NCBI GenBank assembly: GCA_026016205.1
Contig: CP061209.1
Span: forward strand, 181,469 to 245,468
Direction of reading: 5' to 3'
DNA: 64,000 bases
From: Methanosarcinales archaeon
GTDB taxonomy: Archaea > Halobacteriota > UBA148 > JAUWXC01
Below are positions 31,943 to 51,865 of this stretch, in pieces (the stretch's first letter is position 1; every line of letters begins with the position of its first letter). Both the position numbers and the translations under genes were made by a program. The notes beneath the pieces are model-generated. The model worked only from the letters and a program-made list of their open reading frames with translations. It was not told the DNA's origin and did no database searches.

Positions 31943-31944
31943 AA

Positions 31945-35163: not shown

Positions 35164-36317
35164 GCAGACATCTCCGTTTCTGGAACGTTTACTCGTATTT
35201 CTCCTGACATCAGTTTTGGAAGAAGAGAGTCGCGGATTTTGGCAAGTGTGCTGTTTTCATAATCATTTATCCGGCATTGCTCAAATAACGTATGACACGT
35301 GGAACTGAAATTACTAATAATATTAGTAGGAGGTAACGCAACCTTTTGTCGCTTTATATCGCCTTGCGTTATCAAAGGATTACTTGTCCCCCTATTTAGA
35401 GATTCTAGCTTGATTCGTTGCAAAAAGAAATATACAAACTCAAAGTAAAATTTATCTTTGACGATCACTACTAATGTATTATCCGATGGCCAAGACGGTG
35501 GGTTTGCCCTATATAATTTCCCGAGTGTGCCAACTCGCCCAGTAACGAGAATTGGGACTATAAACAGCGGCTCAGATGTATAACCCATTATACCAGAGCC
35601 CCCATAGACAGGAACTGGGGAATCTTGGGATTGGTTCCCCTGAACGATAGACGGTCTCTTACCGCTTGTAACCTTTGCAATATCTGATATCTGAACCACA
35701 TCCCACCCCTTCGGAATCTCCTTGTCCAACTCCTCGCTATATTCAAACTCCCCATCCTTGAAGGGCTCGAAATCCACGAACCACGACCTGAATATCGCTT
35801 GTGCCATTTCTTCAAGCGTGCGGTTCATCTCGTGATTGAGTTCGATTTTGTCGTCGATGGCACCGAGGATGGAGGCGATGCGACGCTGTTCGGATAAAGA
35901 AGGAAGTGTGATCTCAAGGTTTTTAACATCTCGCTGAACGATTAGAGGGTTGCTAGTACCTCGATTAAGAGAAATTAACTTTTGAACTTTGAGCTTTAGA
36001 TTGTAGTAGATGAAATCATAAAGCGCCTCACCATCTTTGGGAATAATCACCAAAGTGTTATCAGAAGGCCACGATGGATGCTTGACCTTATGCAACAATC
36101 CCAACGTCCCAACACGGCCAGTCACAATTACAGATTCTTTAAATAGCGGTTTCTTAGTGTAGCCTGTGATACCTGCGCCGCCATAGATAGGAATTCTTGC
36201 GTCTTCTTCTGGTCGCTCAGAAAAGATAACGGGTCTTTTACCACTGGTAATCCGTGCTATATCTCCAATCCTTACACGGTCTCCTTTTTTACAATTACTA
36301 CGAATTTCACCAGTCAT
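35160..36317 (-). CDS. hsdS: Type I restriction specificity subunit with two near-identical target domains
   Basis: 385 residues. Target domain 1 (about 10-150) contains [44 protein letters not shown] and [18 protein letters not shown]. Target domain 2 (about 205-345) repeats these as [45 protein letters not shown] and [18 protein letters not shown]. Conserved spacer helices ([25 protein letters not shown] and its end copy) separate them. The two halves therefore should recognise the same or almost the same half-site, giving a symmetric split target. It overlaps hsdM by 11 bases. Confidence 0.93.
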
Positions 36318-37842
36318 GCCCCAGTTCCCCCAAATTCATCTTTATCCTTTCCTCGAGCACCCTCGACTTCTCAAATTGCTCCGCCAACTCTACCGTCAGC
36401 CTTTCCATCTTCTCCTCGAAAGGCTCCCCATCGTCCTCTTCCTCTTCAAAGCCAACGTACCGTCCAGGCGTCAATATGTGACCATGTTTTCTAATCTCAT
36501 CCAGTGTGGCGGATTTACAGAATCCCGGAACGTCTTCATACTCACCACCTTCACCGCGCCACGCATGATACGCGTCTGCAATTTTCTTAATATCTTCATC
36601 AGTGAGCTCTCTGTGTCTTCGATCTACCATTTCACCCATCTTACGAGCATCAATGAACAGAACCTGGCCACTTCTGTCTCTGAACTTATGATTTGATTTA
36701 TCACGAGCAACAAACCATAAGCACGCCGGAATCATGGTGTTGTAAAACAATTGAGGAGGGAGTGCAATCATACAATCAACCAGGTCTGCTTCCACGATGT
36801 TCTTCCTGATTTTTCCTTCGCCACCGATATTTGAACTCATTGAGCCGTTGGCCAAGACAAAACCTGCCGTTCCTGTTGGTGCTAAATGATGAATGAAATG
36901 CTGAATCCATGCGAAATTCGCATTTCCGGCTGGTGGTGTACCAAATTTCCATCGTACATCTTCTCGTAGTCGTTCTCCGCCCCAATCACTGTCATTAAAC
37001 GGAGGATTAGCAAGTATGAAATCAGCTTTCAGGTCTCGGTGTAAATCATTATGGAAACTATCGCCCCATTGAACGTTAGCATCAATACCTCTGATGGCAA
37101 GGTTCATTTTACACAGCTGCCCGGTTGTCGAATTTGATTCCTGCCCGTAAATGGCGATGTCGCTGATTCTTCCGCCATGGGCTTCAATGAATTTTTCACT
37201 TTGTACGAACATCCCACCTGAGCCACAGCAGGGGTCGAATATTCTGCCCCTGTACGGTTCGATCATCGCAACAAGGAGTTTGACAATACTCCTGGGCGTA
37301 TAGAATTGACCGCCTTTTTTGCCTTCGGCATCTGCAAACTGACCTAAGAAGTATTCATAAACGCGTCCTAAAAGGTCTTTGCTTCGATTTTCTGAATCAC
37401 CCAATCTTATTGAGCCCACTAAGTCGATAATTTCTCCTAATCGCTGTTTATTCAATGCAGGCCGTGCATAATCCTTGGAAAGAACACCTTTAAGTGCGGG
37501 GTTATCTCGCTCTATGGCAAACATCGCATCATCAATAAGATTGCCAATCGTTGGCTGTTTCGCGTTGTTCTGTAAATACTCCCATCTTGCCTCTGGCGGA
37601 ACCCAGAAAACGTTTCTCATTCTGTATTCATCAACGTCTTCGGGGTCAGAAAGCCCATCAGGGTCATTTTTCAGTTCGTTATAAACCTCCGTAAAAGTAT
37701 CCGAGATATATTTGAGGAAGATTAAACCAAGGACAACGTGCTTATATTCAGCAGCGTCCATATTGCTCCTTAACTTGTCCGCAGCCTGCCAGAGTTTCTT
37801 CTCAAACCCGAGATTTGCACCAGTTGATTTGTTTTTTGGCAT
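36307..37842 (-). CDS. hsdM: Type I restriction-modification methylase subunit M
   Basis: 511 residues from ATG 37842, with AAGGTG six bases upstream; a GTG two codons earlier is less likely. An N-terminal helical domain ([32 protein letters not shown]) is followed by the methyltransferase with [13 protein letters not shown] (SAM site) and [10 protein letters not shown] (catalytic N-P-P-F). It methylates adenine at the HsdS-defined site and protects host DNA. It is the promoter-proximal gene; a tandem repeat lies at its expected start site (37869-37889). Confidence 0.95.
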
Positions 37843-37868
37843 TTTCACACCTTCACTATTCTCACCTG

Positions 37869-37889
37869 ACGATAATCTAACGATAATCT
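37869..37889 (-). promoter_or_regulatory. Tandem ACGATAATCT repeat in the hsdM promoter
   Basis: ACGATAATCT occurs at 37869-37878 and again at 37880-37889, one helical turn apart. On the minus strand a TATA-like ATAAATTA (about 37897-37904) lies just upstream, so the repeats cover the probable transcription start. They may be an operator holding R-M expression in check; no controller gene is recognised beside it. Confidence 0.5.
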
Positions 37890-38010
37890 GGCAGTTCTTA
37901 ATTTATGCCAGTTCATAGTATGCCGCCTTCCCTTTTCCACGCTATCCACTTATTACTCCAGCACCTCTTAAATATACATTGCCAAAATGTTGCCCAGCAC
38001 CAACAAGACA

Positions 38011-38691
38011 TCAAGTAAGCGAGAACAGAATTACATTCAAACCTAGATGTGCAACGTATCCAGGAACTATGCTTCTGGATTTATACATTAACAATCCAAA
38101 TACAACACCTGTAAATGCTATATAATAAAGTATCCTTTCAGGTGGGTGGAGAACAACAAATAAAATAGTTTGAACTATAATGGCCCGTACATCGCCTAAT
38201 TGTATCTTCAACAGATTTTGCAAACAACTCCTAAAGATAACTTCTTCATAGAAAGTACCGAATAAAAGGCCGAAGATGATGTAAATGTTAGGTTCGAATG
38301 CCCGTGGTATCTCACCACCTCTAACGAATTTGTAGACTACAATCCCCATGGCTGCGAGGATTATAGCAGATATCAACCCATATAAAACACTTTTTTTATA
38401 GCTCCACGAATCGGGTCGTCTAGCTATACAAAGGTCTTTCAGATTTTTGTTATACATCTTGATAGCTGCGATGACTAAAAAGAGGGCGGGTAAAGAACTG
38501 GTTGCCAATATGTGATCGAGAGATAAGGCAAGACCTCCTGTCAAATATTTTTGTAAAACTCCTCTGGCCGTAGGTATAGTCAGAAAAGATATGGTATAAA
38601 AAAATCCAAACAAAATGAAAATGCTATATAGTGGATTATGTAAAATAAAGTCGATAATTTTTTGATCAAGCTTTACTCTGGGAAAGGGCAT
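38011..38691 (-). CDS. CPBP-family intramembrane metalloprotease
   Basis: 226 residues with about seven hydrophobic helices. The family motifs are present: FYEEVIFRSCLQNLL (EExxxR, about 143-157), FVVLHPPERILYYIAFTGVVFGLLMY (second motif, F-x-x-x-H) and PGYVAHLGLNVILF (third, H...N). These are the presumed zinc ligands of the CAAX protease/Abi group, which cut within the membrane and are often linked to bacteriocin self-immunity or signalling. The start is adjacent to the HTH gene upstream (4-base gap), suggesting joint expression. Confidence 0.8.
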   Translation of the reverse strand: MPFPRVKLDQKIIDFILHNPLYSIFILFGFFYTISFLTIPTARGVLQKYLTGGLALSLDHILATSSLPALFLVIAAIKMYNKNLKDLCIARRPDSWSYKKSVLYGLISAIILAAMGIVVYKFVRGGEIPRAFEPNIYIIFGLLFGTFYEEVIFRSCLQNLLKIQLGDVRAIIVQTILFVVLHPPERILYYIAFTGVVFGLLMYKSRSIVPGYVAHLGLNVILFSLT

Positions 38692-38695
38692 ATCA

Positions 38696-39109
38696 TCATC
38701 TGGTACTTTTAAGCCTATTAATATGCTGTTTCCTCTTGTTCACCCAATACCAGATCGTCTGCGCGGAGATGTTCTTGTTCGTCTTCTCTGAAATGTGCCT
38801 GGCGATCTTTTCGTATCTCCATCCCTTCTGGCGGAGCTGTCGCGCTTTGCTTACGAGCTTTGAGTCGTAGCGGTCTGCGTATCCCACCAACCTTTTAATG
38901 CCGTGCATTCCCAACATGGTGTGCACGAATGGGTGCAGGCTGTCAACGATGCTGGGTGGAAATCGTAGCGCTTTCACATTTTTTCTCGTTCGTATGATCT
39001 CACCGATGTCCTGCAAGCTCATCTTGTAGCCGATGTGAACCACAGTGGCATCCTTGGGAATCTTCTTGATATCTCCTTTTCGATAAACGACAAAATCAAC
39101 TTTTTTCAT
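38696..39109 (-). CDS. DUF1699-like protein with C-terminal HTH (137 aa)
   Basis: The N-terminal half (DATVVHIGYKMSLQDIGEIIRTRKNVKALRFPPSIVDSLHPFVHTMLGMHGIKRLVGY) has the leucine-rich-like strand/helix pattern of archaeal DUF1699 proteins, which are mostly found in methanogens. The C-terminal half (ARQLRQKGWRYEKIARHISEKTNKNISAQTIWYWVNKRK) is a clear helix-turn-helix of recombinase or resolvase type. It is presumably a DNA-binding regulator of the module. It is cotranscribed with the CPBP protease gene. Confidence 0.6.
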   Translation of the reverse strand: MKKVDFVVYRKGDIKKIPKDATVVHIGYKMSLQDIGEIIRTRKNVKALRFPPSIVDSLHPFVHTMLGMHGIKRLVGYADRYDSKLVSKARQLRQKGWRYEKIARHISEKTNKNISAQTIWYWVNKRKQHINRLKSTR

Positions 39110-39254
39110 TCGACAATCTCCTTAGACAAAATACGAATTCTTGCTTTAAATATATTTGTCTTTTTATTGAGTTTTGATGTGTAGTAATTTTATCGCAGGA
39201 GTACAATCTCCAAGAATCACGGAGTTGATCATTGTTGGTCCTCCTTTCCAGATT

Positions 39255-39614
39255 TCATTTTGCATCACACTCCCTTACCTTGTTTTGCTCAATTATCTCC
39301 AGAATCTTCCTCTCGCAGAATTTGGTGTCGAACTTACCCCTTGCAGATTGGAACACGATTGGACGGAAGAGCTCGACCAATCTGGCTGTTCCGGGGTTGA
39401 AGTCAACCTTGCAGATGCTTTCGAGCTCGTCGTATGTTTTGATGAGTTTATCCCCTGGCATCTCAACGCTCTTCGTCAGTTCGCCTATAATATCCGTGTA
39501 GCTGCGTCTTCCGTTTGATGATTCGTGGATGTCTTCGAGTATGTCGAGCGGCTTGCCTGTGACTCTGATGAGCTTTCCTTTTCTATTTCCCCTTTCCCCC
39601 CCTTTCCTTTTCAT
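39255..39614 (-). CDS. Hypothetical protein (119 aa), plasmid/virus-like module
   Basis: ATG 39614 with TTGGAG seven bases before it; an in-frame ATG 12 bases earlier lacks such spacing. The N-terminus is basic (KRKGGERGNRKGKLIRV) and the segment KPLDILEDIHESSNGRRSYTDIIGELTKS resembles a ribbon-helix-helix/antitoxin-like pair of helices (compare the AbrB/RHH antitoxin VapB-like pattern). The C-terminal half is unassigned. It lies immediately downstream of the repeat-dense region 39627-39795, in the same direction as the small-gene operon. Confidence 0.5.
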   Translation of the reverse strand: MKRKGGERGNRKGKLIRVTGKPLDILEDIHESSNGRRSYTDIIGELTKSVEMPGDKLIKTYDELESICKVDFNPGTARLVELFRPIVFQSARGKFDTKFCERKILEIIEQNKVRECDAK

Positions 39615-39626
39615 ATAATACTCCAA

Positions 39627-39795
39627 TTATAATGAAGGTGTTAACACGGTGTTTACTGTTAACACCCTTGCGTTTACATGCCCTATTTTACAGATATTTC
39701 TTTACAGATTGCTATAACGCCTCAACTAACACGACACGCCTCAACTAACACCCAACTGATATGATATATCAGTTCTATCCTTCGTTCAATATGTA
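39627..39795. repeat. Repeat-dense intergenic region (possible origin or operator array)
   Basis: GGTGTTAACA (39637-39646) and TGTTAACACC (39657-39666) form a perfect inverted repeat. The same core GGTGTTAACACC recurs at 39838-39849, inside the next gene. TTTACAGAT occurs twice near 39687-39710. A 16-base direct repeat, ACGCCTCAACTAACAC, is at 39717-39732 and 39736-39751. Arms AACTGATAT/ATATCAGTT at 39754-39774 form a perfect palindrome with a three-base centre. This density of short repeats in 170 bases looks like iterons or an operator array. Confidence 0.6.
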
Positions 39796-40050
39796 TTATG
39801 CTTGACCAATCTTTTTCGATCCCCCTTCTTCCGAGATGGTGTTAACACCTTTCTCCACATTTTCAATAATTTTCAGAAGTTCAATCTCCCAAAACTCGAA
39901 TTTATCCAAAATTTCGGGGGGTATATATCGGAGCGAGGTTTTTGCATTGCGAATATCAATGGCCCCCCTGCTCACACACCCAGCACCTGCAGATCGCATG
40001 ATTCTTTTTATGGGCTTATAGGGAATTTGGGGTGCAAGCTGATGATTCAT
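39796..40050 (-). CDS. Histone-fold-like small protein (84 aa)
   Basis: ATG at 40048-40050 overlaps the TGA of the upstream gene (ATGA), with GGGGG upstream. The sequence QIPYKPIKRIMRSAGAGCVS, continuing RGAIDIRNAKTSL, resembles the first helix and loop of archaeal histones (L-P-I-A-P-I-x-R-I-I-x-x-A-G-A-x-x-V-S-x-x-A). The remaining helices (IPPEILDKFEFWEIELLKIIENVEKGVN) are divergent. It could be a mobile-element chromatin protein or histone-fold partner. Histone identity is an inference from motif and needs a fold search. Confidence 0.5.
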   Translation of the reverse strand: MNHQLAPQIPYKPIKRIMRSAGAGCVSRGAIDIRNAKTSLRYIPPEILDKFEFWEIELLKIIENVEKGVNTISEEGGSKKIGQA

Positions 40051-40196
40051 AACAACCCCCATCTGTCCTTTTTCGCTGCTCGCCATTTCCACCAAGCGCG
40101 CTTCCGCTCCAGCAAGCGAGCTAGGATATCTTCAGAGGGGATAGAGGGAGGCGAGGCGATCCCCCCTCTCTTCTCGATATGAGCGCTTTCGGTCAT
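40047..40196 (-). CDS. Small basic protein (49 aa)
   Basis: Read directly: ATG at 40194-40196 within the ATGA overlap of the upstream ribbon-helix-helix gene, stop at 40047-40049 within the ATGA overlap of the downstream gene. The peptide starts MTESAHIEKRGGIASPPSIP and ends in a basic, tryptophan-rich helix (SEDILARLLERKRAWWKWRA...). Chained overlaps on both sides are strong evidence that it is translated. Function unknown. Confidence 0.6.
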   Translation of the reverse strand: MTESAHIEKRGGIASPPSIPSEDILARLLERKRAWWKWRAAKKDRWGLL

Positions 40197-40318
40197 ATGT
40201 CCTCCACGATTCTCTTTAACTTGTCATTGATCCATGTGGACCTAGGGATTAGACCACGCTCTTTGTCTATTCTCTCAAGCACATCGTGGTCGATTGTAAT
40301 GTGTATCCATTTTTTCAT
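40193..40318 (-). CDS. Ribbon-helix-helix DNA-binding protein (41 aa)
   Basis: ATG at 40316-40318 gives MKKWIHITIDHDVLERIDKE and then RGLIPRSTWINDKLKRIVEDI. This is a minimal RHH/CopG fold: a beta-strand W-I-H-I-T-I, helix A, turn R-S-T-W, helix B. Proteins of this size often regulate plasmid copy number or viral genes. It is first of three genes chained by ATGA overlaps (40318 to 39796), and the repeats at 39.63-39.77 kb could include its operators. Nothing else precedes it for 120 bases. Confidence 0.75.
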   Translation of the reverse strand: MKKWIHITIDHDVLERIDKERGLIPRSTWINDKLKRIVEDI

Positions 40319-40447
40319 CCGGCATCACACCCCCGCATATGACCATAAGTATTATATATGGTTTTTTTACATATATTGTAACATAGGAATATAGAGAATT
40401 GATATCCCAAGGAACGTATATTCCAAAGATTGTTTAGGGGGTATAAA

Positions 40448-41203
40448 ATGCCAAGAAAAATTGAAAATCCTATATTAGATGGCTTACCATCAAAGATTTA
40501 TTGCCTAGCATACGGCGCGCCGATAAGTGGTTACGAGATAGGACAGAAAATACAAAGAGTGAAAAATCCACGGACAGATCAGATCTACAAGATTGTATCG
40601 AAGGAGTATGAGCACCTCTTTAAGAGGACAGAAAGAAAAGGAAAAAGGGGATTAGCAAAGCCAATTCTATCGAGAGCAGAGCCATTACTCAAGCTGACCG
40701 AAGAGGACTTAGCACGCGTGAACAAGGAGCTAGACGACAAAGAAAGAGGAGTATTGTTAAAATTCTTGAAGACCAGCTTTAGAAAGTACATGAAAGAATA
40801 TGCCAATGTTGGTTTTGTGACTGATCGCCCATATTTCAATATTTATGATGAATTGGTGTCGTGTTTGGTGTTGCCATACGCTATAAGAGATTTTCTGAGA
40901 GATGCCGTAGGCAAGTCTGATGAACATGAAAACACAACAACCTTTATTGAAAATATGATTAACACGATGCATGATAGAAACCTGGATATTTTGAAGATAT
41001 GTCCTCCAGTATTTGCAAAGTTTGGTATTTCGCCGATTGATTTTAAGCCTGGACTGAATATATTCATTTTATCAAAAGAGATACCCCCTTCTCTCTCTCA
41101 AAAGGTTGCCGCAACAAAGCGCGGAATTGTGGAATGTAAAAAAGTAAAACAGCACCTTATTACCGGATTTATGGCAAGCGTAATATCAAAGAAACTCGCC
41201 TAA
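40448..41203 (+). CDS. Hypothetical protein with possible N-terminal winged helix (251 aa)
   Basis: ATG 40448 with GGGGGG upstream. The beginning (ENPILDGLPSKIYCLAYGAPISGYEIGQKIQRVKNPRTDQIYKIVSKEYEHLFKR) has the spacing of a PadR-like winged helix. The rest is helical with no recognised family; AT-rich codons. It lies alone between the divergent RHH operon and the abrB-tail remnant E. It may be an orphan effector or regulator. Confidence 0.5.
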   Translation: MPRKIENPILDGLPSKIYCLAYGAPISGYEIGQKIQRVKNPRTDQIYKIVSKEYEHLFKRTERKGKRGLAKPILSRAEPLLKLTEEDLARVNKELDDKERGVLLKFLKTSFRKYMKEYANVGFVTDRPYFNIYDELVSCLVLPYAIRDFLRDAVGKSDEHENTTTFIENMINTMHDRNLDILKICPPVFAKFGISPIDFKPGLNIFILSKEIPPSLSQKVAATKRGIVECKKVKQHLITGFMASVISKKLA

Positions 41204-41232
41204 CTAGGTTCTATTCCTCTGCCTCTGCAGCT

Positions 41233-41256
41233 TCACGCCTCACATATCTTAAAGGT
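41233..41256 (-). repeat. abrB 3'-end remnant E (most degenerate)
   Basis: TCACGCCTCACATATCTTAAAGGT matches the end of remnant A (TCAAGCTTCCGATATCTCCAAGGT) at 18 of 24 positions. On the minus strand it reads T-F-K-I-C-E-A-stop, corresponding to T-L-E-I-S-E-A-stop of the complete gene at 45287. It lies just downstream of gene 41285-42001. Confidence 0.55.
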
Positions 41257-41284
41257 CAAAGAGTGAACGAGGGAGTGGTAGAGC

Positions 41285-42001
41285 TCAATATCCTGGAAAT
41301 GATGGCGAAAGAATTCTAGCTTTTTCATCATCGGACAGTTTTCCCTTCAAAGCAAAGACATAGCCAAACACATCGGTTTTGGCGTAGGCGTCTGCTAAAC
41401 CATCGAGCGCCCCCCTGTTTGATAACATGCCTTTCACGAATTCTTTGGCGTAATCTCCTGCTCGAATTATATCCAAATCTACTAATAATGGGCGCGTTTC
41501 GAGATGCAGAACGTTCAGAAGAAACAGTCCCGCAAGGGCGGTCAATGTAGCCCCTAGGGTGGCTTCTTTCATATTCGAAAATCTATCGTGCTTAATATTG
41601 TTGTATGCTCCCCACCAATTAGGAGACTTCCCAGATGCGAATTTAGAGAATGGCTGAACATTATCCTTAGTTCGTAGTACATGAACACTTTCGCTCGACA
41701 ACTGATAAAAAGGCTCGAAGATCGTTCGATAATCGCTAATATTTATATTATCAGGATGCTTTTTTCGAATTTCTTGAATTTCTTTGATGTTATCAGCCGA
41801 ATCCATGATTGGACTGTACAAAGCATTCCTAAAAAAAGAATCTACAGTACTTCCTACTCGAAGCATAAGATCGCCCAAATATAAGGACCAAACATCGAAA
41901 TGCTCCCTCTCCAGAGGTACGTAATAAATAAATTTACGAAAATCCTCTTCGATAGAAACGTATGCTTCCCATGCTAGATGGGGGTTAAATTGATTGGTCA
42001 T
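41285..42001 (-). CDS. Hypothetical protein (238 aa), cassette gene 1
   Basis: Mostly helical. The motif NWWGAYNNIKHDRF (about 128-141) resembles the R-x-x-x-x-H region of HEPN-like families, which include RNases of defence systems; it is only suggestive. A hydrophobic helix (ATLGATLTALAGLFLLNVLHL) is part of the core. It lies between abrB-tail remnants A (upstream) and E (downstream). No known product. Confidence 0.5.
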   Translation of the reverse strand: MTNQFNPHLAWEAYVSIEEDFRKFIYYVPLEREHFDVWSLYLGDLMLRVGSTVDSFFRNALYSPIMDSADNIKEIQEIRKKHPDNINISDYRTIFEPFYQLSSESVHVLRTKDNVQPFSKFASGKSPNWWGAYNNIKHDRFSNMKEATLGATLTALAGLFLLNVLHLETRPLLVDLDIIRAGDYAKEFVKGMLSNRGALDGLADAYAKTDVFGYVFALKGKLSDDEKARILSPSFPGY

Positions 42002-42046
42002 AAGTTCATCACCTTCTCGACTGCAACTGTGCTTCTTTGATGAATA

Positions 42047-42100
42047 TCAAGCTTCCGATATCTCCAAGGTCTTGCGTCCCGTAATCCTCAAATACTTCAC
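42047..42100 (-). repeat. abrB 3'-end remnant A
   Basis: On the minus strand the bases encode V-K-Y-L-R-I-T-G-R-K-T-L-E-I-S-E-A-stop, matching the end of the intact AbrB protein at 45287-45430 (I-K-V-R-I-T-G-R-N-T-L-E-I-S-E-A-stop). The first 12 plus-strand bases (TCAAGCTTCCGA) are identical. The upstream half of the gene is absent. Confidence 0.75.
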
Positions 42101-42133
42101 TCCCAGTATTCTAAGTGTAAGAAGCTGATTGAT

Positions 42134-42952
42134 GTGTTAATCCAACTTGGCCCTACTTATTTAGAAGGTATGTCTATTTTAGAATTCGTGTCTGCTCCAG
42201 GCGTTGAAGCTCTTATCAACATAGTCTTGATTCTCGCATTGGTTTCTATAACGGCATACTACGCACACCAGGTAAGGAAGCAAACCGAGATTATGAGGGA
42301 GGATAGGGAGCGCCCCCAAATCGTAGAGTTGATGAAAGGTATTGTTACACCGTTTATACACCAACTAGAGGTGGAAATAAGATCACTTGAAAAGGGAGAG
42401 TATGAGTGGGATCACAGAGGAAAGCGTGCAAAAAATGTCAATAAGTTAATTGGACCAGAAAGGATTTTAAATGATCTCAAAAGGAAATCTCCCCCTCTTA
42501 AAGAGAAGATAGAAAATCATAACGAGAGATGCTCGATTTTAAGAGAAAAATTAGAAAATCTAGATAAAGCGATATATACCCGTGAATTTGAAGAGAAATG
42601 TCGTGATCGAGTTGCAGAACACAATAAAAAATACCGTGCAGGAAATCCTGAATTTTTATCAGACGGTCTCATAAAAAATTCGCCAGAAGTATTTGTAGGA
42701 CATATAATCGACAATAGAAAGGAGCTCTTCAGCGCCACTCGCTTTCATGATTTTTGGAGAGGACATGGAGCAGAATTCCTTGAGATGAGAAATAGGGGCG
42801 ATATAAAGGATAAAATAGATGAAATAGGTAGTATCGCTGAAGAACTTAAAAGTTTGTCACAAGAAATCAAAGACGACCTAGAGCAGCTTAGAGAGAAGTA
42901 CAGTCAAAAGTACCATTTATTGATGGGAGAGATTGGATTTAAGGAAATCTGA
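42134..42952 (+). CDS. Membrane-anchored coiled-coil protein (272 aa), cassette gene 2
   Basis: GTG 42134; an ATG at 42170 (MSILEF) could also be used. One N-terminal transmembrane helix (ALINIVLILALVSITAYYAH, about 26-45) is followed by a long, highly charged, mostly helical cytoplasmic part with two coiled-coil stretches. The HQVRKQTEIMREDRERPQIV region after the helix is common in small bacterial and archaeal membrane proteins of defence islands. Function unknown. It lies on the opposite strand to the other cassette genes, between remnants A and B. Confidence 0.55.
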   Translation: MLIQLGPTYLEGMSILEFVSAPGVEALINIVLILALVSITAYYAHQVRKQTEIMREDRERPQIVELMKGIVTPFIHQLEVEIRSLEKGEYEWDHRGKRAKNVNKLIGPERILNDLKRKSPPLKEKIENHNERCSILREKLENLDKAIYTREFEEKCRDRVAEHNKKYRAGNPEFLSDGLIKNSPEVFVGHIIDNRKELFSATRFHDFWRGHGAEFLEMRNRGDIKDKIDEIGSIAEELKSLSQEIKDDLEQLREKYSQKYHLLMGEIGFKEI

Positions 42953-43047
42953 CGAATGGCACCCCGCTTTTCGATGGAGAAATTAAACTCCTGGATAACA
43001 TAGCATTCATCCTTCTAATCTCTTCAAAATTCACAGTCTACTTAGCA

Positions 43048-43077
43048 TTCTGATATCTCTAGTGTTTTTAGCCCCGT
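43048..43077 (-). repeat. abrB 3'-end remnant B
   Basis: The minus strand reads T-G-L-K-T-L-E-I-S-E, matching T-G-R-N-T-L-E-I-S-E of the complete AbrB gene. The stop has been lost (the next codon is TGC). It lies immediately downstream of the gene 43105-43479. Confidence 0.6.
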
Positions 43078-43104
43078 TTCATCGCGCGGCGGCGGTCATG
43101 TGCC

Positions 43105-43479
43105 TCATCGGAAAAACACCGTGATGGTGATGAGAATCAAAATGATCGTGAGAACCACAAGCAAGATTGTGTAAAAGCGTAGAGACTGCGTATGGTCAAG
43201 CATCTCCTTGCTGATTTTCCCACTTTTTTCACTGAAATCCTCGATAGCATCTTTTAGGGCGAGGGTGCCTGCGCTGATTCTGTGCGGCAGAAGCTCATTA
43301 TACCCTTTTTCAGTTAGGCGGTAATCCGAGCCACTCCACTTGATTAATCCAAGACTCATCGCTGCTGTAAAGTCGCTACTATTGAACCCGTCTTTTTTTG
43401 CCGTCTCTTCATCAACCAATCTGCTCTTTGCATCTTCCCTGTCGATGTAGTCGATAAGTTTAAAGACTTTAGATCTCAT
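43105..43479 (-). CDS. Winged-helix-like protein with C-terminal membrane anchor (124 aa), cassette gene 3
   Basis: The first 70 residues (RSKVFKLIDYIDREDAKSRLVDEETAKKDGFNSSDFTAAMSLGLIKWSGSDYRLTEKGYNELLP) look like a winged helix with a wing strand at the end. The C-terminus is a transmembrane helix (FYTILLVVLTIILILITITVFF). A DNA-binding or protein-binding domain tethered to the membrane is suggested. It is flanked by remnant C at its 5' side and remnant B at its 3' side. Confidence 0.55.
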   Translation of the reverse strand: MRSKVFKLIDYIDREDAKSRLVDEETAKKDGFNSSDFTAAMSLGLIKWSGSDYRLTEKGYNELLPHRISAGTLALKDAIEDFSEKSGKISKEMLDHTQSLRFYTILLVVLTIILILITITVFFR

Positions 43480-43525
43480 CTGCGTTACAACCTCACAAGC
43501 ATGATTGTACTGCTTTATTATCTCT

Positions 43526-43560
43526 CTTCCGATATTTCTAACATCTTGCGCCCGGTTAAT
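43526..43560 (-). repeat. abrB 3'-end remnant C
   Basis: The minus strand encodes L-T-G-R-K-M-L-E-I-S-E-E-R-stop, a further copy of the AbrB tail. CTTCCGATAT and CTTGCG-CCCG match remnants A and D at the same spacing. It lies just upstream of the gene 43105-43479 and just downstream of the ATPase gene 43633-45156. Confidence 0.7.
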
Positions 43561-43632
43561 GCCCAGTTAATAAAAGACTATCATCGACAGGATGTTTGAA
43601 TAAGATTGAGGTAGAATTGAGATTGGAATTAA

Positions 43633-45156
43633 TCATAGGTTCTTATCAGACCGTTTCAAAGCAACCAGCACAGCAGAAATAGGAGCAAATAAAAAGTTAT
43701 TCTTGGACTCAAAGATATCTCTTGTTAGGATCAAGTAATTTTGAATTTGATCTATTTTCGCTATTTCCCTTGGTGAAATGGCATGTTGATACTTTACCTC
43801 GACCCCCAAGTACCCTTCATCACTTCTTGTCACGAAATCTATTTCATTTCTCGCATCGTAATAAAACCACAAGAAAGTATCAGGCTCCTTTATGTAGGGC
43901 TCCTCTTTTACCCTACTCAGATGAGAAGCCACTACCCCCTCTATCAACTTACCCTTGTTTCTTTCGTCCATTAAAAACTCTTTCGAAAAAGCGAAGCTAT
44001 CCATGCCCTCAATCCGAGATTTAACGGAGTAGAAAAGGAAGGGGTCTATGAAATAGACCTTTTTGTTAGCCTTAGGTCTTATTTTTCGCTTCTCGAAATC
44101 ATAAGAGTGGATAACTTGTAGTAGAACGGATTTTTCCAAAGTTTCAAGGTAATCAGCTATTGTAGGGTGTGTTACTCCATCCAGTCTACCCGCCAAACTC
44201 GAAAAACTAATCCTTGCGCCAATACTGCTGGAAACGCTTTGGAGTATTTGTAGACCTATGTCCTCCGTTTTCCTATGCTTTGATAGATCCCCCAGGATAG
44301 TTCGAATAAACGTCTCGGATAGCTCCGCATCTATTCCCTCCTCTCCCTTGTGAAATCTGTTTTTAAAATAGTTGTTCGCAACTTTTGGAAACCCCCCCGT
44401 GATGAGGTAAATGTCGAAAAGGAAATCAAGTTCCCTTTTGAATGGAAGGAGTTTCTTTACGCCGTCTTCTATCTCATTGAGATTGTCTAAACCTACAGGA
44501 GAGCTCTCCACTAACGTCTCACCTAGCTTACTTAGAGAGCTTTTTAGTTCCCGGTCTTCAACATGCCTAGAGATGGGTCCAGCTAGTTGTAGTGAAAAAT
44601 CTCTGAATGACAAAGGTTTTAGGAAATATTCATTTCTCTCTGCTCCCCTCCCCGGGAGGAATTCCATCTCCTTTTTTAGTACCATGGGACTGGACCCTGT
44701 AACCACCAAAGCAGTTTTTGAGAGCAAGCCACTGTCAACTAAGTGTTTCAACTCGTAGCTCCAATCCGGAACGTAGGTTATCTCGTCCAAAAAGATATAG
44801 GTCTTATCGAATTCTATCGCCATATCTAGAAAGAAGGAGAGGACTCTTCTCAGCTCTCTTCTTGTTCTTGAAACTAAAGAGTCACATGCAAAGTAAAATA
44901 TACTTCGTGGGGGGTTATTCTTCTTGAGAAGTTCTAGTATGGTCTTTTTCAGCAAAACAGTCTTTCCACTCTGCCTAGGTCCTTTTATAACGTAAATATT
45001 CCCTGGCTTGAGTTCTATCTTCTGTCTAGAGAATTCGAACCACTCGTCTCTAACTCTAGATAGATCTCTATCATGAACGTTAAAGTTTTTTGCGTGCTTC
45101 CACCAAAGGTTCTGGTAATTGATCGTGCTTATTTCTACCATTTTTTGTAAATTCAT
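43633..45156 (-). CDS. AAA+ ATPase with DUF4143-type nuclease-like C-terminus (COG1373), cassette gene 4
   Basis: 507 residues from ATG 45156. The frame extends to 45219, but the extra part consists of the AT-rich promoter repeats. It has INYQNLWWKH, Walker A YVIKGPRQSGKTVLLKK, Walker B TYIFLDEITYVPDW and sensor TGSSPMVLKKEMEFLPGRG (S-S/L-P-G-R). The C-terminal DUF4143 domain contains FYYDARNEIDFVTRSDEGYLGVEVKY, a PD-(D/E)xK arrangement (E-I-D-F...E-V-K). These ATPases are common in archaea and often duplicated; function is uncertain. It is located between remnant C and the intact abrB gene. Confidence 0.82.
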   Translation of the reverse strand: MNLQKMVEISTINYQNLWWKHAKNFNVHDRDLSRVRDEWFEFSRQKIELKPGNIYVIKGPRQSGKTVLLKKTILELLKKNNPPRSIFYFACDSLVSRTRRELRRVLSFFLDMAIEFDKTYIFLDEITYVPDWSYELKHLVDSGLLSKTALVVTGSSPMVLKKEMEFLPGRGAERNEYFLKPLSFRDFSLQLAGPISRHVEDRELKSSLSKLGETLVESSPVGLDNLNEIEDGVKKLLPFKRELDFLFDIYLITGGFPKVANNYFKNRFHKGEEGIDAELSETFIRTILGDLSKHRKTEDIGLQILQSVSSSIGARISFSSLAGRLDGVTHPTIADYLETLEKSVLLQVIHSYDFEKRKIRPKANKKVYFIDPFLFYSVKSRIEGMDSFAFSKEFLMDERNKGKLIEGVVASHLSRVKEEPYIKEPDTFLWFYYDARNEIDFVTRSDEGYLGVEVKYQHAISPREIAKIDQIQNYLILTRDIFESKNNFLFAPISAVLVALKRSDKNL

Positions 45157-45210
45157 TTTCAATATATTTAAATTTTTTGTAAATACACTTTCAATATATT
45201 TAAATTTTTG
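45140..45210. promoter_or_regulatory. Direct repeats over the ATPase gene start
   Basis: TTTTGTAAATTCATTTTCAA plus TATATTTAAAT and a second copy TTTTGTAAATACACTTTCAA plus TATATTTAAAT lie about 31 bases apart, roughly three helical turns, each containing a TATA-like ATATTTAAA. They cover the expected promoter and start codon of the ATPase gene. They may be regulator sites or a local duplication of the promoter. Confidence 0.5.
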
Positions 45211-45286
45211 AAAATCCACGTTTAAAAATTTAAACTTAAAAGAATCTCAGATAATTAAGAGATATACAACTCATTATCTTTTAACA

Positions 45287-45430
45287 TCAAGCTTCCGAAA
45301 TTTCCAGCGTATTGCGCCCTGTGATCCTGACCTTTATCTTGGTGTTTTCGTCCCATCCGAAGCCTCGGACTATATCCATGGGGACAGTTATCATGTAGGA
45401 CGATCCGACCTTCATGATTTTCCTGGCCAA
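45287..45430 (-). CDS. AbrB-family DNA-binding protein (47 aa), intact copy D
   Basis: TTG start at 45428-45430; an ATG at 45415 is the alternative. The protein reads MARKIMKVGSSYMITVPMDI, then VRGFGWDENTKIKVRITGRNTLEISEA, a standard AbrB/MazE swapped hairpin. A TATA-like CTATATAAC lies at about 45471-45479 on the minus strand. The last codons are repeated as remnants C, B, A and E to the left. It may be the source gene of those remnants or the last surviving member of a series of duplicated abrB genes. Confidence 0.75.
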   Translation of the reverse strand: MARKIMKVGSSYMITVPMDIVRGFGWDENTKIKVRITGRNTLEISEA

Positions 45431-45481
45431 AAAGATGGCAAATCCCCCTTTTTGTTTGTGATTTCGTTGTTATATAGTCTA

Positions 45482-45835
45482 TTATTTTCGCTTGGAGATA
45501 TCTTCTTTTATCACTTCCAGCGCCTTTCTCGCTTTGGTCTCTTCATCCGCCACCAGGATGACGACATCATTTCCCTTAACACCGAACCCGCTCTCTATCG
45601 CCTCTTTTTCCTCTTTGGAGATTCCATAGGCAGGTAACTCGTCCGTCGAAATGTAGCCTTTTACGCCGGTTTGCTCTTCCACCTTCTTTTGGAGAGCATC
45701 CGCGTATGCCTTATCCCCTACCAGAACGCCGGCAAAACCCTCGATTTTTTCTCCTAAAACGACGCCACCCCTCTCTATGATTCCTTTTATCAGGCCGGAG
45801 CCCGTATTTCCAAATATGTTGGTTACGTCCTCCAT
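45482..45835 (-). CDS. Stand-alone GAD-domain protein (117 aa)
   Basis: ATG 45835 with GGAGGAATGAA in front. The sequence GLIKGIIERGGVVLGEKIEGFAGVLVGDKAYADALQKKVEEQTGVKGYISTDELPAYGISKEEKEAIESGFGVKG matches the GAD insert domain of GatE (archaeal Glu-tRNA-Gln amidotransferase; typical S-D-E-L-P-x-Y-G-I-T motif), which is also found in bacterial AspRS. Here the domain stands alone, without the amidase or tRNA-binding parts. It could regulate amidotransferase or have its own ligand-binding role. Divergent from PC4 at 45966. Confidence 0.7.
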   Translation of the reverse strand: MEDVTNIFGNTGSGLIKGIIERGGVVLGEKIEGFAGVLVGDKAYADALQKKVEEQTGVKGYISTDELPAYGISKEEKEAIESGFGVKGNDVVILVADEETKARKALEVIKEDISKRK

Positions 45836-45965
45836 TTCATTCCTCCATGCGATATTGTGATTTACCGCTATTAATTGTTTGGTCGCCTTTAATACACACG
45901 AAATCCCCTGGCTATTAAAGGTTAAATATTTAAAAGGATGTACGATGAATGATGGAGTGATAAAT

Positions 45966-46178
45966 ATGGTCGATGAGGAAATTGGAAAAATTGAACTGGA
46001 CAAATCCACTAAGATCATAGTCAGGCTAACCGAATGGAAGAGTGAGCAGCGCGTAGACATTCGCAAGTTTGTGGATACTGAGCGCTACACCGGATATACA
46101 AAGCAAGGCATTAGTGTGCCTGTAGCAAAAATAGATGAACTCAAGGCATTGCTTGATGCGGCTGTGACGCCTCAATAG
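45966..46178 (+). CDS. Transcriptional coactivator PC4/p15-like protein (70 aa)
   Basis: ATG 45966 with GGAGTGATA in front; an in-frame ATG at 45945 is less well placed. KIELDKSTKIIVRLTEWKSEQRVDIRKFVDTERYTGYTKQGISVPVAKIDELKALLDA is a PC4 domain: a beta-sheet with R-x-x-D/x-I-R-K-F and the G-I-S-x-P helix end. PC4 proteins bind single-stranded DNA and, in eukaryotes, act as coactivators. A TATA-like TTAAATATTTAAAAGG lies near 45922-45937. Convergent with valS (7-base overlap). Confidence 0.85.
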   Translation: MVDEEIGKIELDKSTKIIVRLTEWKSEQRVDIRKFVDTERYTGYTKQGISVPVAKIDELKALLDAAVTPQ

Positions 46179-48592
46179 ATCTCGCAAATTAGAACCGCTA
46201 TATCCCCAACCTGGAGAACATCCCCTTTCTTCTCTGGTGCGCCTCTCACAACTTCCACGCTCTTTGCCCAGGTCGTGCCCTTGATGTCGTTAATACCTTG
46301 CTTAATCCATTTTTCGTCAGGAGCGTTGGCGTATATCTTGATTTTTTCCAGCTCCGCGTTGAGCGCCATACCTTTTTCCGATTTATATCTCCTTATGGCG
46401 CCTATGACCTCTTTGATAACCTCGCCACCCTTTTCTGCCTCATCATCTATCAGCGACTCATCCGCCTCTGGCCACTTGCACCTATGAATGCCCCGCTCTC
46501 CTGTGTATGAATAACACTCCTCCGCAAAGTGAGGAATAAATGGCACCAGTAACAGAAGAACGGTCTCAACGACCCTGCTTAGCGTGTACCTTGCCGCATT
46601 CTTTGCATTGGTATCATCACCGTACAATCGATATTTTGTCATCTCAATATAGTTATCAGCTAGCTCGCTCCAGGCAAAACTCCTGATTTTTTGTAATGTC
46701 TTGAACTCATACCCCTCCAGATCGGCGGTGACTTCTTTGATCAATCTATTCAGTTTGCTCAGAATCCACCGGTCAATGATGTTCAACTCTCCCGGGGCAC
46801 TGGAACGATGGGGTATGCTGAATTTAACGACATTCCACATCTTGGTCAAAAAACGCTTTCCGTGAACGATTTCCTTCAATTCGAATGGGTAGTCTTCTCC
46901 CAATGATGCAATAGCAGCCCACTGCCTGACAGGGTCAACTCCATACTCGTCGATGATTTCATCTGGCGCAACGACATTGCCAAGACTCTTGGACATCTTT
47001 TTGCCATCTTCTCCGAGCACCATTCCATTGACTAAAACATCCTTGAATGGCGCCTCTCCGGTTAGGATAAGGCAGCGAAAGATAGTGTAAAATAGCCAGG
47101 TCCGGATGATCTCGTATCCCTGTGGCCTGATGGACGCGGGGTAGAGTTTTTCGAACTCATCGCTCAGCCAGTTGCTTGCCATAAGAGGGCTTATCGAGCT
47201 GTCAACCCAGCAATCGCACACGTCAAGGTTGCCTTTGATATTTTTCGAATTGCACCGCGGACACGAATCTACTGGTGCACCATCTACTGCAGGATTAACA
47301 GGCAGGTCGTCTTGCAAGGGCGCGATTATCTCATCACAATCTTCACAGTACCAGAAAGGTATCGGCGTTCCAAAGACTCTTTGACGCGAGATGACCCAGT
47401 CCCAGTCCAGGGAGTTTGCCCAGTCTGTTAGTCTCTGAAACATATACTCTGGATACCAGTTCATCTTTTCAGCGGCGTTAATCACGTCTTTTGACTTATC
47501 CTTAACCTTGATGAACCACTGGGGCATTGGGATAAATTCAATCGGCCTCTGGCAGCTACTTCGCTCTGAGTGAATTAGGACCCTGTGCGTTATAGGCTCC
47601 TGCTTGGTGATTGCACCACTAGATTTCAAATCTTCTATAATCTGCTTTTGACACTCTTCTATAGTCGTGCCTTTGTACTTGCCAGCATATTCCGTCATAT
47701 GCCCATTTTCATCAATGGCGACAATCGCCGGCAGCGAATATTTCTGCTGCCACACCAGATCCTGCTCATCACCGTACGTGCAGACGTAAACCGCGCCCGT
47801 TCCGAACGTCATGTCTACGTCCTCATCTGCGATGATGGGAACCTCTCTCTTATAAAGGGGTAATCGCGCCGTCTTTCCGACATAGTTGCCGTATCTTTCA
47901 TCGTCAGGATGCACCATGACCGCAACGCATGCGCACATCAATTCGGGGCGGGTTGTGGCAATGGTTATGTGGCCATTGTCAACTCCATCAACACATAATC
48001 GTATGTGACTCAGAATGCCATCCCGCTCGATATATCCAAGTTCAGCTTTGGCAAGCGCGGTTCCACAGTTGCAGCAGTAGTGTATTGGATAGCGTTTTCT
48101 ATAAACCCGCCCAAGGTCATTGAACTTGAGCAGCGATAACTGGACCTTGGTGATGTGGTCTTTGGACATGGTCCTGTATTCCCTGGACCAATCCGCCGAA
48201 TACCCCAGTCTTTTAAACTGGGCCTTCATCTTCTCTATGCTCTTCTCTGTCCAGTCTATGCACGCTTCCCTGAATCTCTCCCTGTCTTCCTTGGAGATGC
48301 CGAGTTTCTCCACCTGTAATTCTGTGGGCAGGCCATGGCAATCAAAACCTTGCGGCAGCAGAACATTATACCCTCTCATCCTCTTGTATCGCGCAGCAAT
48401 ATCAATCCACGTATGATTCAATATATGTCCCATGTGAAGGGTGCCCGAGGTGAAGGGGGGCGGCGTGTCGATGACATATACTGGACCCTCTACGTCAAAA
48501 TCAAATCTATAAAACTCCTCCTTTTCCCACCGCTCCTGCCATTTTGGCTCGATTTTATCGGGTTCGTATGTCTTTGGCAATTTGTTCGTCAT
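46172..48592 (-). CDS. valS: Valyl-tRNA synthetase
   Basis: 806 residues, class Ia. The HIGH-type motif is PPFTSGTLHMGHILNH (about 41-56), followed by the zinc-ribbon/CP1 editing region (FTGG-type TATTRPELMCACVAVMVHPDD), and the KMSKS loop is GKKMSKSLGNV. The C-terminal anticodon-binding helices are present and the tail is short, as in archaeal enzymes. It is the third gene of pyrD-pyrK-valS on the minus strand, overlapping pyrK by four bases. Confidence 0.96.
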   Translation of the reverse strand: MTNKLPKTYEPDKIEPKWQERWEKEEFYRFDFDVEGPVYVIDTPPPFTSGTLHMGHILNHTWIDIAARYKRMRGYNVLLPQGFDCHGLPTELQVEKLGISKEDRERFREACIDWTEKSIEKMKAQFKRLGYSADWSREYRTMSKDHITKVQLSLLKFNDLGRVYRKRYPIHYCCNCGTALAKAELGYIERDGILSHIRLCVDGVDNGHITIATTRPELMCACVAVMVHPDDERYGNYVGKTARLPLYKREVPIIADEDVDMTFGTGAVYVCTYGDEQDLVWQQKYSLPAIVAIDENGHMTEYAGKYKGTTIEECQKQIIEDLKSSGAITKQEPITHRVLIHSERSSCQRPIEFIPMPQWFIKVKDKSKDVINAAEKMNWYPEYMFQRLTDWANSLDWDWVISRQRVFGTPIPFWYCEDCDEIIAPLQDDLPVNPAVDGAPVDSCPRCNSKNIKGNLDVCDCWVDSSISPLMASNWLSDEFEKLYPASIRPQGYEIIRTWLFYTIFRCLILTGEAPFKDVLVNGMVLGEDGKKMSKSLGNVVAPDEIIDEYGVDPVRQWAAIASLGEDYPFELKEIVHGKRFLTKMWNVVKFSIPHRSSAPGELNIIDRWILSKLNRLIKEVTADLEGYEFKTLQKIRSFAWSELADNYIEMTKYRLYGDDTNAKNAARYTLSRVVETVLLLLVPFIPHFAEECYSYTGERGIHRCKWPEADESLIDDEAEKGGEVIKEVIGAIRRYKSEKGMALNAELEKIKIYANAPDEKWIKQGINDIKGTTWAKSVEVVRGAPEKKGDVLQVGDIAVLICEIY

Positions 48593-49359
48593 AGTTTCAT
48601 TTTCCTTCCACTTGCATCTCTGGCATATCGTCCGAATTCTGAATCGACCAATATGTCCCCACTAAATACTGGGCCATCTACACAGACTCTCAGCCCCGAC
48701 GGGTCGATGCAGCAGGTGCCACAGATGCCCATTCCACACTTGATGTAACGCTGGAGGCTGAGCTGCGTTTTAGGTGTCATGTTCGCATTTTTCGCCGCAT
48801 TCAGCACCTTATGCATCATCTTTTCGGGTCCGCAGGAGTATATTTGGTCATAGTCTTGCAGGTTTAATTCAGCTACTAATTCAGTTACAGGTCCCTTGTG
48901 CCCTTTAGACCCGTCATCTGTTGCTGTCTGTATCTCTCCTGCCCCCCTAAATCGCTTTACGAATAACAGTTCATCGCCTATTTTAGCGCCCAGGAGCGTT
49001 TTTACCTTTATTTTTTCATCTCTAGCCGCTTCTGCCAGAGGCGCCAGTGGCGCAGCACCGACACCGCCACCGATTAACAGGATCGACTTTCCGCTCAGCG
49101 TAAAACCATTTCCAATAGGGCCTCTTACTCCAATCGAATCGCCTATTTTTAGTTTGAATAAAGCAGAGGTAGCGTCACCCACTCTCTGGACCGTAATCGC
49201 ATTGGGGCATGATAGGCTCATTGGAATTTCATCAACACCTCTAATCCAGACCATCACGAACTGTCCGGGCTTGCTATCCAGCGTTAAATCCAGAAAGAAC
49301 GTCTTGGTGGATGGCGTTTCATCCACAATTTTCGTTATTCTGGCATTCATGGGCATCAT
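48589..49359 (-). CDS. pyrK: Dihydroorotate dehydrogenase electron transfer subunit PyrK
   Basis: 256 residues. The FAD domain has VDEIPMSLS (in place of R-x-P-x-S), the NAD site is LLIGGGVGAAPLAPLAEAA, and the C-terminus carries a [2Fe-2S] loop CGMGICGTCCIDPSGLRVCVDGP. It lets the class 1B PyrD use NAD+. Overlaps pyrD by four bases and valS by four, so the three are translationally linked. A related protein at 148-975 belongs to a different enzyme. Confidence 0.93.
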   Translation of the reverse strand: MMPMNARITKIVDETPSTKTFFLDLTLDSKPGQFVMVWIRGVDEIPMSLSCPNAITVQRVGDATSALFKLKIGDSIGVRGPIGNGFTLSGKSILLIGGGVGAAPLAPLAEAARDEKIKVKTLLGAKIGDELLFVKRFRGAGEIQTATDDGSKGHKGPVTELVAELNLQDYDQIYSCGPEKMMHKVLNAAKNANMTPKTQLSLQRYIKCGMGICGTCCIDPSGLRVCVDGPVFSGDILVDSEFGRYARDASGRKMKL

Positions 49360-50249
49360 TTCTGTGCCACGCCCCTAATATCATCTAGGGTGCATTGCCT
49401 CTTCTCGAGAAATTGTGCGATTCCCTTGGAGATGTTCCTGAAGACATTTATGTCATCGTGCACTGCGGATCCAATTTCAATGGCAGAGGCGCCTGCCATG
49501 ATGAATTCGACAGCATCTTTCCAAGTGAATATACCACCCACACCGATCACATCGATGCTCAATGTAGCGCACAACTCATACACACATCTAAGCGCCACCG
49601 GCTTTATCGCTGCCCCGGACAGTCCACCGACCTTATTGCCCAGGATTGGACGACCAGATTCTATATCGATGCCCATCGCTGGTATGGTATTAATCGCGAC
49701 TGCGGCATCTGCCCCCCCTTCTTGGGCAGCCAGTCCCACTTCTGCAATATTCGCTAGCGGTGGGAGTTTTACCCATACCGGCACGTCTACTACACTCTTG
49801 ACACTCTTTGTAATCTCCTTGACTTTCAATGGGTCCGTGCCCAGGGTCGCACCGTATCCTTTAGCATGGGGGCAGCTCAGGTTCAACTCGAAGGCATCAG
49901 GCCTTGCTTTACTCAGTCCTAAGGCAACTTCCTCAAACTCTTTCGCATTAGAGCCGAATATGCTTGCGATTACTGGCACATCTCCTTTTACCGTCTCTAA
50001 CTCGCGTACAAATTCACGATAAGATGGGTTGGGCAACCCCATTGCGTTCAAAAAGCCATGCTCTGTTTTGACCAGTACGGGCCCAGGATGCCCCTTTCGT
50101 GGCAAGGCACCTATCGACTTCGTTACGACTGCGCCTGCACCGTGCTGTGCCATCCTTCTCAGCGATGCAGCACTGGTTCCAAGAATCCCGGCAGCTAATA
50201 TAGTGGGATTTTTCAATTTCAGGCCACTCAAATCAATCGTCAGGTCCAT
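49356..50249 (-). CDS. pyrD: Dihydroorotate dehydrogenase, class 1B
   Basis: 297 residues from ATG 50249; an in-frame GTG 18 bases earlier is possible, but the TATA-like GATATTTAAAG lies about 30 bases before the ATG, suiting a leaderless start. The TIM barrel has AAGILGTSAASL, the active-site ELNLSCPHAKGYG with the class 1B cysteine, VKLPP and NTIPAMGIDIE. It oxidises dihydroorotate to orotate; with PyrK it transfers electrons to NAD+. Confidence 0.95.
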   Translation of the reverse strand: MDLTIDLSGLKLKNPTILAAGILGTSAASLRRMAQHGAGAVVTKSIGALPRKGHPGPVLVKTEHGFLNAMGLPNPSYREFVRELETVKGDVPVIASIFGSNAKEFEEVALGLSKARPDAFELNLSCPHAKGYGATLGTDPLKVKEITKSVKSVVDVPVWVKLPPLANIAEVGLAAQEGGADAAVAINTIPAMGIDIESGRPILGNKVGGLSGAAIKPVALRCVYELCATLSIDVIGVGGIFTWKDAVEFIMAGASAIEIGSAVHDDINVFRNISKGIAQFLEKRQCTLDDIRGVAQK

Positions 50250-50346
50250 CTGGCTCACGTCTCGCACTTTAAATATCGTGTTGAGAAATATATCTTTCTG
50301 TAGCGCTCAGAAAATTTATGCCATATTGGATTAAAGGTAAAGGAGC

Positions 50347-51859: not shown

Positions 51860-51865
51860 GGCATT

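Follow-up and report, generated by a model that had tools for sequence, protein, structure and literature searches.

One example of accretion by cis-mobilizable elements (CIMEs) is the streptococcal fda gene. In Dehalococcoides, many tandem islands lie downstream of a single gene, ssrA, and are bounded by 20-bp direct repeats of its 3' end. Some of these islands carry no integration genes and were suggested to be cis-mobilizable and moved by accretion; one amplicon, composed of part of a module and cargo, measures about 7 kb (PMC3146451). In PAISt from Streptomyces, the bacA 3' end is present three times (a 141-bp duplication) and marks off modules, each of which can excise as a circle of its own (PMC4057263). 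Integrons, including archaeal ones, hold arrays of single-gene cassettes between recombination sites, and their integrase may act in trans (PMC9668308). The dif/pdif modules of Acinetobacter plasmids are small units that often contain toxin-antitoxin genes and use a host-encoded recombinase. Among the integrated elements of Thaumarchaeota, 14 of 68 are located in 3'-distal parts of protein genes and are accompanied by direct repeats (PMC6563490). Here, these systems are compared with an array from a Methanosarcinales archaeon. It lies within a stretch of 64,000 nucleotides (contig CP061209.1, positions 181,469 to 245,468), called the window below, where four single-gene cassettes adjoin a short AbrB-type gene (abrB) and are separated by copies of its 3' end, termed tails. 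It is quite probable that this array results from serial integration of gene-sized, integrase-free cassettes at the 3' end of the resident gene, each cassette contributing its own copy of the ending.

The abrB array and its cassette-free relative

Read from abrB towards its resident neighbour, the locus contains the following features (window coordinates; aa, amino acids; TM, transmembrane; ORF, open reading frame):

45287 to 45430, minus strand: intact AbrB/MazE-type recipient gene, 47 aa, TTG start (Pfam PF04014, 33.7 bits)
45287 to 45322, minus strand: foreign, cassette-borne abrB 3' end, last ~12 codons (from the comparison with G001)
43633 to 45219, minus strand: cassette 1, AAA_14/DUF4143 ATPase, candidate defence family PDC-S01 (Pfam, PADLOC)
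43522 to 43560, minus strand: displaced abrB 3' end, TGRKMLEISEER, perfect pattern match at 43528-43553
43105 to 43479, minus strand: cassette 2, ORF for a 124-aa winged-helix-like protein with a C-terminal TM helix (both by eye)
43042 to 43080, minus strand: displaced abrB 3' end, TGLKTLEISEC, pattern match at 43049-43074, post-stop flank common to the G002 abrB locus
42134 to 42952, plus strand: cassette 3, ORF for a 272-aa coiled-coil protein with an N-terminal TM segment (TM by eye)
42047 to 42110, minus strand: displaced abrB 3' end, RITGRKTLEISEA, extending 5' with a +4 frameshift
41285 to 42001, minus strand: cassette 4, ORF for a 238-aa HEPN-like protein (by eye; no Pfam match)
41233 to 41256, minus strand: resident (original) abrB 3' end, ~4.05 kb from its own gene, TFKICEA-stop, matching G001
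41204 to 41232, minus strand: resident 3' flank of abrB, continuing the G001 alignment into the 257-aa gene
40430 to 41203, plus strand: resident neighbour, the 257-aa gene that adjoins abrB in G001 (95% identical there)

The same-genus genome G001 displays the gene order ValS, PC4, GAD and abrB, directly followed by the 257-aa gene, which is absent from the other nine genomes of the order. Its abrB ortholog occupies the same position and is 85% identical in aa sequence. Window positions 45300-52146 align with positions 6859-1 of the G001 locus L016 (93.5% identity) and window positions 39854-41249 with positions 8251-6856 (96.6% identity). Since both blocks meet within abrB, at the same 4 bases of G001, the ~4.05 kb with the four genes are extra in the window. 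Absence of the cassettes from a related genome, named as a check in the first-pass annotation of this DNA, was in this way encountered for the entire array. G002 and G003 have no abrB at this place. The abrB gene on contig C4 of G002 was considered as a syntenic copy and rejected, as it is situated at another location.

Along abrB, similarity between the window and G001 is uneven: the 5' part is identical at 94/107 positions and the last 12 codons at 22/36 (Fisher p = 0.001). In addition, the tail at 41233, which reads ACCTTTAAGATATGTGAGGCGTGA followed by AGCTGCAGAGGCAGAGGAATAGAACCTAG, matches the end and flank of the G001 abrB gene at 47/53 positions (coding part 19/24). By this alignment, the fifth tail, which had been called weaker, is confirmed as a real abrB 3' end. 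The intact gene in the window combines a resident-like 5' part with a foreign 3' end, and its resident end is found beyond the last cassette. This means that the incoming units supplied new gene endings.

The first-pass annotation had reported one intact AbrB-type gene with tails recurring on the same strand and exactly one gene per interval. Both statements hold: all five 3' ends are located on the minus strand, four of them are perfect pattern matches and the one at 41233 is identified through G001. The in-frame 30-nt cores encode TGRNTLEISE in the intact gene, TGRKTLEISE at 42047, TGLKTLEISE at 43048 and TGRKMLEISE at 43526. The degenerate pattern GGNNNNNNNNNNYTNGARATHTCNGA, which represents G-x-x-x-L-E-I-S-E as DNA, has four perfect matches in the whole 987,146-bp single-contig genome (G000), all on one strand and clustered in 3.3 kb at window positions 42054-45319. 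The reversed control pattern has none in the same 987,146 bp. With two mismatches, 10 matches were obtained in the window versus 6 expected, which is uninformative; therefore, the count of perfect matches over the whole genome is the proper test of tail recurrence, not the mismatch-tolerant window search.

Alignment of the tails at the DNA level was a further check named in that annotation. In local alignments, the tails at 42047 and 43526 score 28 and 21, above the window background of at most 16, whereas the tail at 43048 scores 12 and is within this background by plain identity. It was recovered through its codon pattern and through alignment of tail and post-stop flank to the abrB 3' end of the relative G002, where the flank reaches a score of 16 that none of 2000 shuffles attained. 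Because tail and flank both align there, at least this cassette brought along the post-stop flank of a donor as well. In an nhmmer search, an abrB-family DNA profile placed the three inner tails among the top matches in the region (model positions 109-116 to 145-150), with E = 1e-4 for 42047 in a 7-kb region. The degraded copy at 42047 extends ~33 nt 5' beyond the core with a +4 shift (extension score 13, null maximum 8.3). For the tails at 43526 and 43048, no 5' extension as degraded abrB above the null was found.

Between the inner tails and the intact end, 18 of 22 differences fall on third codon positions (p = 4e-6, with the same reference in all comparisons). As the differences are mainly at third positions, the tails still functioned as gene ends during their divergence. 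Such a bias is expected if each tail completed abrB before another cassette was inserted. An RNA element at the tails was considered and rejected, as Rfam yielded no match in window 28000-46000. Viruses carrying this abrB family were looked for in IMG/VR, with no match.

The ATPase gene probably starts at 45156 or 45138; an AT-rich tandem-like repeat (AAATATATTGAAARTGNATTTACAAAAAATTT) at 45140-45219, just before this gene, is also present in G003. For the protein of cassette 2, no homolog was found in the order, and one very weak match (E = 7e-4) was detected among 99 relatives. Cassette 3, whose gene is on the opposite strand to the other three and probably starts at 42173, has homologs with 27-54% identity in 7 of the 99 relatives; the three homolog loci checked within the order contain no abrB tail. 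Cassette 4 has no homolog in the 99 relatives. Neither an integrase match in the cassette ORFs scanned nor a transposase or casposase gene in the scanned cassettes was found; inverted repeats were not searched for systematically. A conserved toxin neighbour of abrB was not encountered either, as genes of this abrB family have different neighbours from locus to locus.

Similar arrays at dcd, cas6 and further genes

Contig C46 of G003 contains 174 bp of the ATPase gene (97% identity), in another context and without an abrB tail. Following the ATPase cassette to this contig revealed a second case, in which repeated 3' ends of the dCMP deaminase gene dcd are separated by HicB/HicA and ParE-type toxin genes:

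L131:571-2612 (G003), and L153, L154 and L155: repeated dcd 3' ends around inserted genes (HicBA, ParE-type, VapBC where identified)

A search of the order detected displaced dcd endings in G001, G002, G003 and G004. In G000, the site is unoccupied, with a DUF1699 gene directly after dcd. G001 contains a 1.65-kb insert with VapBC and helix-turn-helix genes between dcd and the displaced ending. Compared with G000, its intact dcd is identical at 367/381 positions and then at 39/54 along the gene (p = 8e-8). In the flanks, the displaced tail matches G000 at 58/60 positions and the intact gene at 23/62. The proposed exchange of dcd endings in G001 and G003 is based on the identity drop along the gene together with the flanks. 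A gene rebuilt with an element-borne 3' end, its resident end on the far side, is seen both at abrB in G000 and at dcd in G001, and a cassette-free site in a close relative is available for both, in G001 for abrB and in G000 for dcd. The cargo at dcd is a HicB-type gene in G002 and has no family assignment in G004. As a separate observation, a stray dcd 3' end (ALEFLKQANVDVVKF-stop) is located at window 28489-28548 after an unrelated gene of the accessory island described below; dcd itself is at 269.5 kb of contig C1 of G000.

The same anatomy is found at cas6 in G004. Four copies of the cas6 3' end (L173:12400-16857) delimit MNT/HepT and HEPN/MNT genes of toxin-antitoxin type, along with small uncharacterized genes, between cas6 and the next gene. 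The last copy is followed by a gene without Pfam match (L173:10683-12395). Repeated endings also surround VapBC cargo at an alanyl-tRNA-synthetase-like gene in G004 and inserted genes at a PD-(D/E)XK-like gene in G000 and at gyrA in G007 (the last two genes assigned by eye); further loci look similar. Among 20-kb samples, 600 kb from three genomes of the order yielded about 11 loci with direct repeats (at least 80% identity, at least 300 bp enclosed), versus none for 600 kb from three genomes of other orders. As several of the repeats are intergenic, the count is supportive and not a tally of 3'-end cassettes. Beyond the single searches, genome-wide statements rest on sampled stretches.

Possible origin of the arrays

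In the proposed mechanism, an incoming unit would bring its own version of the recipient's 3' end together with a single gene, or, as often at other loci, a toxin-antitoxin pair. It would be circular or otherwise a substrate for a single crossover and may move between strains. One crossover, or an equivalent event, in the last ~10 codons would fuse the 5' part of the resident gene with the 3' end of the unit. The recipient gene would stay whole, and its former 3' end would be pushed downstream and decay there. Repetition would leave a complete gene in front of a row of cassettes with old endings between them, the original ending being furthest away, and recombination between the direct repeats could cleanly remove cassettes. 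A crossover in the ending explains why the resident ending is found at the greatest distance and why gene 3' ends are the preferred place. This agrees with the repeated capture beside an abrB 3' end with a renewed tail that had been proposed for the locus: cassette-free G001, the foreign 3' end with the resident one displaced, and the parallels at dcd and cas6 argue for it. The accompanying idea of a site-specific attachment site has fared less well, since tail lengths vary and no recombinase was identified.

Several observations weigh against serial integration as proposed. No recombinase was found in the cassettes, and a common recognition core across the target genes has not been demonstrated. 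Tails range from 24 nt to more than 100 nt, which a fixed crossover site alone does not predict. The drop of dcd identity in G003 is weak (p = 0.03), and the displaced dcd tail in G001 and G003 does not resemble G000 significantly more than the intact end does (45/54 vs 39/54, p = 0.25). For most of the additional loci, no cassette-free relative was examined. The comparison genomes are metagenome-assembled or of unstated origin. Finally, it is the swap pattern that suggests a gain in the window and not a loss in G001; G002 and G003, which lack abrB at this site, do not serve as an outgroup.

Which enzyme would act is a matter of two readings with about equal odds. The first, a serious possibility that nevertheless falls short of an even chance, assumes that a recombinase working in trans joins circular cassettes at att sites formed by gene 3' ends, as in cis-mobilizable elements. 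A rebuilt gene as attL and a displaced end as attR correspond to the islands at bacA and ssrA, which speaks for a recombinase. Where the shortest tails of abrB and dcd begin, their sequences are similar (ACGYTGGARAT and GCGCTSGARTT, by eye), which is suggestive of a shared core; tail starts vary. By contrast, at least three well-documented targets, abrB, dcd and cas6, are unrelated, and gyrA and the alanyl-tRNA-synthetase-like and PD-(D/E)XK-like genes are likely others. The recombinase might be host Xer or an enzyme encoded in the same accessory island as the array:

11872 to 45481: accessory island between tmk and the GAD-domain gene, with TAGTCTA direct repeats at its bounds (tmk and GAD are adjacent in G002 and G003)
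11933 to 13207, plus strand: tyrosine recombinase at the left edge of the island, candidate trans-acting enzyme (PF00589, E = 3.8e-14)

This 33-kb island is inserted at the 3' end (stop codon) of tmk and has abrB at its right edge, so that the enzyme's own island is at a gene end with TAGTCTA repeats. Besides the recombinase, it contains a terminase-like gene and type I restriction genes. Nothing ties the tyrosine recombinase to the cassettes. As an independent feature, a dispersed repeat of ~90 bp (AAATTCTACCAACCAAGTCGATGATTGG...) is present at window 31261-31342, at L157:2584-2680 and at L176, L158, L149, L138 and L168, with copies 82-87% alike; the window copy has no Rfam match.

The second reading, also possible without being probable, is homology-anchored capture. 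Here, the host recombination machinery would recombine a donor 3' end and its cassette into the resident gene, and the other side would be joined at a short similarity near the resident 3' end, duplicating this end (homology-facilitated illegitimate recombination). Variable tail lengths and many targets argue for it, and it also accounts for foreign 3' ends and for donor post-stop flanks such as that of tail 43048, in common with G002 abrB, or the 30 nt after the dcd stop in G001 that are 93% identical to G004. By itself, it leaves the duplication of the gene end at every array junction unexplained. Moreover, with 20-35% divergence already present between resident and donor ends, a stretch of 30-60 nt offers poor homology, unless the anchor lies further 5'.

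Decay, in which the tails would be remnants of abrB genes once paired with their neighbours and no capture beside a resident end took place, had been offered as the other account of the locus and is improbable. Copies of abrB are indeed numerous and decaying in the sister family f3 (7-13 abrB-like matches per genome, many broken), many of them precede a Tat-lipoprotein gene, the one recurrent partner there, and a frameshifted 5' extension is present in the remnant at 42047. But plain decay fails as the main explanation because the incoming units supplied new endings, and it does not predict swapped ends. It is also at odds with cassette-free G001, with 3'-only remnants at all four places and with the anatomy at dcd and cas6, which are not toxin-antitoxin partners; the ATPase piece in G003 lacks an abrB tail. 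Decay does act in addition: older window tails are degenerating, and degraded abrB copies are many in f3. In four f3 genomes (G005, G010, G008 and G007; loci L115, L114, L120 and L113), the same 5'-truncated abrB is located after the same conserved gene (ending in ...DYYRKLGYELDGPYMVKGLR-stop) and is an old remnant. The f3 abrB frameshifts recur near codon 34-35, and 4 nt are inserted at the same place in window tail 42047 and in G008c.

Least probable is a long target-site duplication by transposition of some sort, copying 30-150 bp of target: the three nearly identical dcd ends of G002 (70/70 and 95/100) look like a fresh duplication and several loci have repeats with >90% identity, but in pure form it does not yield swapped endings and was rejected, as it leaves unexplained why abrB in G000 and dcd in G001 are intact genes with foreign ends whose resident ends are displaced. 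An integron was likewise rejected, as attC cores (GTTRRRY/RYYYAAC) were not found at the abrB junctions except for one stray match near 41233.

Serial integration at gene ends bears on the open question of how single small toxin-antitoxin or defence genes enter genomes without transposons or integrases of their own. The cargo, which comprises toxin-antitoxin pairs, a Fic protein and the DUF4143 ATPase, suggests selection by addiction or defence. Arrays of this type would be a readable record, in which displaced endings mark and order the insertions and the intact gene carries the ending that arrived last. Repeated 3' ends of a neighbouring gene provide a search rule for all genomes, and abrB-type arrays offer testable substrates in the search for an enzyme. 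For annotation, short coding-like remnants should be regarded as scars and not as genes. It is conceivable, though unlikely, that the order has an integron-like gene-capture system that places cassettes behind many host genes, uses the genes' own 3' ends as exchangeable joints and employs a dedicated enzyme in trans. If this were true, the cassettes stored by it would be largely toxin-antitoxin and defence genes.

Comparison with described systems

Like the window array, the ssrA islands are tandem units bounded by repeats of the 3' end of one gene. They differ in that ssrA is an RNA gene, the host is bacterial, many islands contain serine recombinase modules, and units are much larger with other cargo. 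PAISt shares modules delimited by copies of a protein-gene 3' end, but these modules comprise 105 and 569 kb, an internal tyrosine recombinase is present and recombination occurs at an 8-bp palindrome (PMC4057263). CIMEs (described in PMC3146451) resemble the cassettes in that they lack an integrase, have att-like ends and accumulate one behind the other at the end of a gene. In contrast to the units of one to few genes in the archaeon, which show no sign of a parent element, they are derived from conjugative elements and are kilobases long. Integrons use attC core sites, whereas the separators in the window are the recipient gene's own 3' end. The dif/pdif modules differ by their Xer sites on plasmids and are not known to regenerate gene ends. 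The elements of Thaumarchaeota are larger and their att sites generally short; single-gene arrays are not described in the sections of the study consulted (PMC6563490).

Tandem islands with repeated gene ends were therefore known already at ssrA and bacA. A description of small-cassette 3'-end arrays was not found in the literature searched, which is not proof of absence. What is new here is the combination of a unit size of 0.45-1.7 kb, the lack of a recombinase, several target genes in one lineage, toxin-antitoxin cargo and an archaeal host.

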